Made by a program: the position numbers and the translations under genes. Below the pieces are notes generated by a model. It had not been told where the DNA came from and did no database searches. It was given only the letters and a program-made list of their open reading frames with translations. Positions 31,417-32,198 of a stretch of DNA of 44,267 nt are shown here, in pieces. The number at the start of each line of letters is the position of its first letter. Within the stretch, counting starts at the first letter, position 1. The stretch is from assembly GCA_949293325.1 (NCBI GenBank), contig CASFCZ010000093.1, positions 1-44,267 on the forward strand, given 5' to 3'. This stretch comes from an uncultured Eubacteriales bacterium (GTDB taxonomy: Bacteria > Bacillota > Clostridia > Lachnospirales > CAG-274).

Positions 31417-31878
31417 TTAAAAAATTACAGCAAGCCTTGTTGAGGCAACCTCTTTACGGGGAAACGAAAGTTCCTTACCCTCCTCTGACTCAATGACCAC
31501 ATTATCATCCTTAAGTCCCAGCAGAGTGCCTCTGAATTCTTTTTGTCCTTCAAGTGCTTTAAAGAGCTTTACATCCACAAGTTTACCCTTATATTTAACA
31601 TACTCATGGTCTCTCTTAAGTATACGGTCAATACCTGGCGAGCTTACCTCCAGTATATATGGCTCATCGGTAATATCATCACTAAGCTGTTCATCCAGTG
31701 CCCTGGATACAAGTTCGCAATCATCTATTGTAATGCCGCCTTCCTTATCCACGTACACCCTTAGATACTTATTAGGCCCTTCCTTAACAAACTCAGCATC
31801 CACAAACTCAAAACCATTTTGTTCAATAATAGGCATAGCCAGCTCTTCTGCAAGCTTAACTATATCCTTTGCCTGCAT
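31417..31878 (-). CDS. rimP: Ribosome maturation factor RimP
   Basis: 153 residues. It assists assembly of the 30S subunit. Family segments are IIEQNGFEFVDAEFVKEGPN, LRVYVDKEGGITIDDCELVS, the DEPYILEVSSPGIDRIL motif and a C-terminal small barrel (FRGTLLGLKDDNVVIE). ATG at 31878 lies six bases after GGAGGGTGA; a TTG just upstream is also in frame. Its A is shared with the TGA of a short upstream frame (31878-31997), a sign of coupled translation. Confidence 0.95.
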   Translation of the reverse strand: MQAKDIVKLAEELAMPIIEQNGFEFVDAEFVKEGPNKYLRVYVDKEGGITIDDCELVSRALDEQLSDDITDEPYILEVSSPGIDRILKRDHEYVKYKGKLVDVKLFKALEGQKEFRGTLLGLKDDNVVIESEEGKELSFPRKEVASTRLAVIF

Positions 31879-31997
31879 CAACCATCACCCTCCTTGTTGT
31901 ATTTAAGCAGAAAAATAGGAGCTGTAGCCACAGCCCCATTTGCGTCCTCGTCAAAAAAAACTCCGTACCTGCCGAACATATCGGCATGGGTCTGCAT
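31878..31997 (-). CDS. Short open frame in the rimP leader, possible leader peptide
   Basis: 39 codons from ATG 31997 (or 55 codons from GTG 32045) to a TGA that overlaps the rimP ATG (TGATG). The predicted peptide contains ADMFGRYGVFFDEDANGAVA and ends with LLKYNKEGDG. Its composition looks protein-like, with mixed charged and aromatic residues, rather than the low-complexity product of noncoding DNA. The rimP ribosome binding site lies in its last codons. No good ribosome binding site precedes either start, so it could be noncoding leader. I do not recognise the peptide. Confidence 0.35.
   Translation of the reverse strand: MQTHADMFGRYGVFFDEDANGAVATAPIFLLKYNKEGDG
31911..31937 (-). terminator. 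Terminator-like hairpin just before rimP
   Basis: On the minus strand GGGGCTGT (31937-31930) pairs with ACAGCTCC (31925-31918), one G-T pair, four-base loop, and is followed by TATTTTT. It lies about 20 bases upstream of the rimP ribosome binding site, so it could attenuate the operon. It also lies inside the short leader frame. Confidence 0.45.
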
Positions 31998-32027
31998 CCA
32001 AGCCCAAAACAGGCTGAAGATAAAACA

Positions 32028-32048
32028 AGAGTGGGCAGAACCCACTCT
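32028..32048 (-). promoter_or_regulatory. Hairpin at the start of the rimP leader
   Basis: AGAGTGGG (32028-32035) and CCCACTCT (32041-32048) form a perfect 8-base stem with a 5-base loop about 20 bases after the predicted transcription start. The following T-run is interrupted (TGTTTTAT), so it is a weak terminator or a structural leader element. Confidence 0.5.
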
Positions 32049-32073
32049 CTAATCAACAACAGTCACTGGAAAC

Positions 32074-32102
32074 ATTATATCATCAAAACATTTCCATTGC
32101 AA
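32074..32102 (-). promoter_or_regulatory. Sigma-A type promoter of the rimP-nusA-infB operon
   Basis: Minus-strand -35 TTGCAA (32102-32097, four of six), 17-base spacer, -10 TATAAT (32079-32074, perfect). It gives a leader of nearly 190 bases before rimP. Confidence 0.7.
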
Positions 32103-32163: not shown

Positions 32164-32198
32164 TAAAAAAAGCCGGGGAGAATCTCTCTCCCACAGCC
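32164..32198 (-). terminator. Rho-independent terminator of the liv operon
   Basis: On the minus strand GCTGTGGGAGA pairs with TCTCCCCGGC (GGGAGA/TCTCCC perfect core, 5-base loop), followed by seven T. It lies 14 bases after the livF stop. Confidence 0.85.

Follow-up and report, generated by a model that had tools for sequence, protein, structure and literature searches.

Known regulation of the rimP operon

The closest described system is the rimP-leader (Naville and Gautheret, 2010), a terminator whose GGG..CCC stem is highly conserved and is followed by a T-stretch. It lies 4-130 nt before the gene and was reported in Firmicutes and Gammaproteobacteria upstream of rimP-nusA-infB (PMC2965389). 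NusA was proposed as its regulator; no larger conserved element was reported, and the tandem terminator found in some Gammaproteobacteria lies upstream (PMC2965389). According to a review, NusA of B. subtilis is autoregulated via NusA-stimulated termination in its leader (PMC12288461).

We analysed a window of 44,267 nucleotides, the forward strand of contig CASFCZ010000093.1 from an uncultured Eubacteriales bacterium, in which the 5' leader of a rimP-nusA-infB operon is encoded on the minus strand. The first hairpin of this leader (hairpin 1) carries GGG on its G-rich 5' arm (GAGAGUGGG) and CCC on its 3' arm (CCCACUCUU), and is followed by an interrupted T-stretch (GTTTTATCTT). It matches the published rimP-leader terminator and is hence already known, both the rimP-leader (PMC2965389) and NusA autoregulation (PMC12288461) having been described. 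The locus also resembles the B. subtilis system in having a terminator with an interrupted U-tract in the 5' leader of the nusA operon (PMC12288461), and by analogy NusA may act here as well. Unlike the published rimP-leader (PMC2965389), the window contains an extra structured module and a second terminator-like hairpin downstream. The Rfam model for rimP (RF01770) gave no match in the leader and none above the cut-off in the genome, which means that this model misses the Bacillota form in this genome. No riboswitch, T-box or ribosomal-protein leader was matched in the leader at the Rfam gathering score; four permissive matches, the L20 leader included, lay far below the family cut-offs and were rejected.

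Organisation of the rimP operon and its leader

On the minus strand, the promoter and leader are followed by rimP, nusA, ylxR, an L7Ae-family gene, infB, rbfA, a DHH/DHHA1 gene, truB and ribF, and Pfam supports RimP, NusA, YlxR, L7Ae-family, IF2, RbfA, DHH/DHHA1, TruB and RibF-type proteins in the same order. The elements flanking and opening the leader are:

32074..32102, minus strand: rimP operon promoter TTGCAA-17-TATAAT, found by sequence scan
32027..32049, minus strand: hairpin 1, the rimP-leader terminator, GAGAGUGGG-loop-CCCACUCUU, found by folding and scan; same kind of hairpin in 128/129 leaders
32017..32026, minus strand: interrupted U-tract behind hairpin 1, GUUUUAUCUU, found by scan; relatives also have a T-rich tail
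31888..31895, minus strand: rimP ribosome-binding site AAGGAGGG, assigned by eye, within the 39-codon frame
31417..31878, minus strand: rimP, with Pfam RimP_N and the RimP C-terminal domain

The promoter and the leader of about 190 nt between it and rimP were present where the first-pass annotation of this DNA had placed them. The promoter matches 10 of the 12 hexamer positions and has TG ahead of the second hexamer, and transcription is expected to start near 32067, a position inferred from the promoter. The scan is weak on its own, since shuffles of the region yield 0.6 such sites. Likewise, promoter-like sites across leaders say little (≤80 nt in 125/128 rimP leaders), because shuffled A+T-rich sequence reaches 98.9/128. 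Terminator-like sites numbered three in the 381-base region, versus 0.2 in shuffles. A third terminator-like hairpin (32176-32192, minus strand) stands directly behind a livF-like gene and parts the transport operon from the rimP promoter.

Both hairpins of the earlier annotation were recovered. Hairpin 1, at the start of the leader, consists of 10 pairs and a 3-nt loop; when it was folded alone, its z-score was -4.5 and none of 200 shuffles equalled it. The terminator-like hairpin before rimP (hairpin 2, here P3) is present at 31937-31918 with a T-rich tail.

Conservation of hairpin 1 in Bacillota

A total of 130 rimP starts with upstream DNA were gathered from three collections (30 loci, the window included, plus 80 and 20); L011, with only 9 nt of upstream DNA, was unusable, leaving 129 leaders. 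Of these 129 Bacillota leaders, 128 contain, ahead of rimP, a GAGUGGG..CCCACUC-type hairpin followed by an interrupted U-tract, the sole exception being L090, in which the GAGUG-type hairpin is absent; many of the loci come from close relatives or one species, and the counts are of loci rather than independent events. When two flanking bases per side were counted, there were 82 distinct versions of the hairpin, and all seven core pairs are formed in every one of them. Double changes from G-C to A-U were found at one core pair in 4/82 versions and at the adjacent pair in 1/82, and G-U occurs at another core pair in 8/82. The cores of L035, L039, L120, L129 and L130 are altered but paired, four as GAGUGAG..CUCACUC and one as GAGUGGA..UCCACUC. 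The arms are 4-8 nt apart. Hairpin 1 precedes rimP by 25-358 nt (median 79); this distance is 150 nt in the window, outside the published range of 4-130 nt, which is no strict definition, and it also exceeds 130 nt in 21/128 leaders.

The motif is specific to rimP leaders. A scan of 61 genomes with the pattern GAGTGGGN{3,9}CCCACTC returned 47 places in 44 genomes, whereas the reversed control pattern was found in one genome. A by-hand comparison with RimP positions put 41 of the 47 places directly upstream of rimP, and two more (L174 and L175) are near contig ends with leader-like flanks. The remaining four lie away from rimP: L172 and three others (L170, L171 and L173), each of which is an inverted repeat that has a T-rich tail on either strand. 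In L172, GAGTGGGGAAATCCCCACTC is located at approximately 980-999 of the reverse strand, by eye between putative rpsO and pnp genes.

A genus-specific module between hairpin 1 and rimP

The remainder of the leader, approximately 32018-31911 (module 2), consists of the stems P1 and P2, the element ACGAGGACG and the second terminator-like stem:

31998..32018, minus strand: P1, UUCAGCC / GGCUUGG; in G001 one pair altered on one side and one mismatch turned into a pair
31986..31995, minus strand: candidate antiterminator strand GCAGACCCAU, identical in G001, with a pairing energy inside the shuffle range
31970..31986, minus strand: P2, UGCCGA / UCGGCA; two double compensatory changes in G001
31932..31951, minus strand: genus-specific motif ACGAGGACGNAANNGGGGCU, in 3/344 genomes, once each
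31918..31937, minus strand: P3 (hairpin 2), second terminator-like hairpin, GGGGCUGU / ACAGCUCC; one double compensatory change in G001
31908..31917, minus strand: U-tract behind P3, UAUUUUUCUG, kept in G001, UAUUUUA in G002

Module 2 was compared with that of the nearest relative (G001), the RimP of which is 93% identical to that of the window. Although 20 of the 118 aligned columns differ, no pair is broken among the 21 that make up P1, P2 and P3: three are changed on both sides and still paired, one is changed on one side only and kept, and one mismatch has become a pair. When the same number of substitutions was placed at random, 20 of 20000 trials reached at least three double changes, and 1 of 20000 did so with no pair broken; the stems were picked after both sequences had been seen, so the test leans towards them. 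G002, the third species of the genus, retains ACGAGGACG, the AA after it, GGGGCU and a P3 that contains mismatches and has UAUUUUA behind it, and its 5' part is longer and rebuilt. The whole module folds with a z-score of -2.75 (equalled by 1/200 shuffles). P3 has 8 pairs and an interrupted U-tract (tail TATTTTTCTG) and is modestly stable, with a z-score of -2.1 and 9/200 shuffles equal when it was folded alone as a piece without its first G.

Among 344 genomes of the order, the motif ACGAGGACGNAANNGGGGCT is present only in the three of this genus, once in each; the copy in the genome of the window (G000) is in its leader, and those of G001 and G002 are just upstream of their rimP. Module 2 is a genuine, if small, addition specific to this genus. 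Its interpretation as a repeat or mobile element was considered and rejected: in a DNA search of 116 genomes, full-length matches lay only at rimP of G000 and G001, and the other matches listed reached at most 40.1 bits and 42 bases, short matches of a kind present in 114/116 genomes at a loose E of 10. Six exact matches of the motif in viral contigs were also set aside as apparently due to chance, as they have no GAGTGGG within 300 nt upstream and flanks unlike module 2.

The compensated stems, the invariant ACGAGGACG between them, the terminator-like end and the fold of the whole module are what would be expected of a ligand- or protein-sensing RNA, riboswitch-like or of the ribosomal-protein leader type, with P3 as its expression platform. 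We regard this identity of module 2 as rather improbable, as it has no Rfam family match, is confined to three species, and its candidate switching helix is within the range of shuffled sequence. That helix would pair the 5' arm of P3 with the strand 31995-31986. The best duplexes with this arm have energies of -12.8 (window), -14.2 (G001) and -12.5 kcal/mol (G002, at a different site), which were equalled by 236, 102 and 354 of 1000 shuffled upstream regions, respectively. When folded up to the 5' arm of P3, the RNAs of G001 and G002 use pairing of this kind and that of the window does not. The antiterminator pairing, no stronger than expected from shuffles in any of the three species, is kept only as a hypothesis.

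It is unlikely that P3 is no working terminator and that module 2 serves only to make the leader longer or more stable, or to modulate the accessibility of the ribosome-binding site, leaving regulation to hairpin 1 alone. The energy of P3 is modest (-11.4 kcal/mol in the window and -7.6 kcal/mol in G002), its U-tract is interrupted, and the module is missing from the other inspected leaders of the family, most of which contain nothing beyond hairpin 1 and a short gap. Against this stand the compensated stem, with a T-rich tract directly after it in all three species of the genus, and the excess of second terminator-like hairpins over chance in other rimP leaders. By eye, a CUCCU in the 3' arm of P3 might mask the ribosome-binding site in the window and in G001; G002 has no CUCCU there.

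Second terminator-like hairpins in other rimP leaders

Of 124 distinct spacers separating hairpin 1 from rimP, 11 held a further terminator-like hairpin under a strict definition, compared with a mean of 0.3 and a maximum of 1 over 20 shuffle rounds. Seven of them (L049, L054, L073, L084, L087, L092 and L101, Bacillaceae by record titles) share a CCCUGC..GCAGGG hairpin; of the other four, two belong to the genus of the window, and L042 and L105 are single cases. A folding-based definition gave a second hairpin in 10/107, against 0-2 per round in five shuffle rounds, and the two lists overlap partly. P3 resembles the Bacillaceae hairpin in its location between the rimP-leader hairpin and rimP. 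In contrast, the Bacillaceae hairpin is of unrelated sequence with a C-rich 5' arm, and ACGAGGACG is absent from the sequences compared. In the open literature, the terms searched yielded no account of a second terminator located downstream in the rimP leaders of Bacillota.

Two long spacers were inspected by eye. L113 (229 nt between hairpin 1 and rimP) carries an insert with inverted repeats (CAATGACCAATC..GATTGGTCATT) that its close relatives L111 and L116 lack and that could be a small mobile element. In L024 (259 nt), a stretch starting with AAATCAATTAAGATATGACTTAATTTT is present twice as a direct repeat.

The 39-codon open frame

The first-pass annotation had regarded the leader as a candidate attenuator in which translation of a short frame could open the terminator and couple to rimP. 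The frame exists as described, passing through hairpin 2, enclosing the rimP ribosome-binding site and overlapping the rimP start codon:

31878..31997, minus strand: 39-codon open frame, judged to be no gene from comparison with relatives

It starts with ATG at 31997 and ends in TGA (31880-31878), the final A of which is common to the rimP ATG at 31878. An open frame that crosses P3 and ends on the rimP start codon would suit a leader peptide, during the synthesis of which ribosomes would unfold the second terminator and link translation to rimP. G001 also has a shifted frame with its own ATG, a similar 3' half and the same end point. However, the coding reading was rejected on comparison with the relatives. 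In G001, the frame of the window is interrupted by +2 and -1 indels, and its ATG is replaced by GTG. In the gap-free block of 26 codons, including the stop, eight codons differ, one synonymously and seven nonsynonymously, and the changes at codon positions 1/2/3 number 2/6/3; in rimP of the same pair of genomes, 55 differing codons are synonymous and 10 nonsynonymous (positions 7/2/63). The synonymous-site bias that would have pointed to coding is lacking in the aligned block. In G002, the register of the frame enters rimP without a stop. The substitutions argue against coding in the shifted frame of G001 as well. Judged from these alignments, the 39-codon frame does not look like a gene, and leader-peptide attenuation is very unlikely.

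The annotation had named two observations that would tell against its own proposal, frameshifting indels in relatives and the lack of conserved stems. The indels were found, but the RNA structure of the stems is conserved. The attenuator itself stands, with hairpin 1 as the known rimP-leader terminator and hairpin 2 as a compensated terminator-like stem, and its translational part does not.

A DNA operator at hairpin 1, that is, an inverted repeat for a repressor dimer in place of an RNA element, is hardly credible: both arms are almost invariant, beyond the need of a plain terminator, but the gap between them varies, G-U pairs are tolerated, and in the transcript the T-rich tail lies 3' of the hairpin (mean of 7.1 T/12, versus 4.2 A/12 on the 5' side).

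Proposed regulation of the operon

Taken together, the leader is probably a two-step transcription attenuator of the rimP-nusA-infB operon, and our verdict is that of a known attenuator with a lineage-specific second checkpoint. In the first step, the strong GAGUGGG..CCCACUC hairpin and its interrupted U-tract would be transcribed early, and some polymerases would stop there. By analogy with B. subtilis, NusA, itself a product of the operon, would promote this stop and limit its own synthesis. In the second step, predicted for this genus only, transcripts that read through would fold P1, P2 and the ACGAGGACG element and end in the second intrinsic-terminator-like hairpin ahead of the rimP ribosome-binding site, which would act as a further checkpoint. 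The comparisons show that hairpin 1 is conserved and paired, that the stems of module 2 are compensated and that the frame is free of coding constraint; we infer termination at either site, a part for NusA and any switching with its signal. The second checkpoint may switch via pairing that competes for the 5' arm of P3, in response to a putative signal. The two-step model is limited by the occurrence of module 2 in three species only, with a rebuilt 5' part and a weaker P3 in G002.

A broader proposal is that module 2 is a new lineage-specific sensor RNA with a switchable terminator behind a NusA-responsive rimP-leader, giving two independent gates, and that Bacillota lineages repeatedly gained second gates of unrelated sequence; we advance it tentatively, as a possibility with the odds against it.

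Through NusA, IF2 and the pair RimP and RbfA, the operon ties together transcription elongation, translation initiation and 30S assembly, respectively. Regular addition of another terminator behind the NusA-responsive one would make the feedback on this operon layered and tuned by lineage, and the Bacillus relatives with a second hairpin would be a tractable place for testing such layered feedback.
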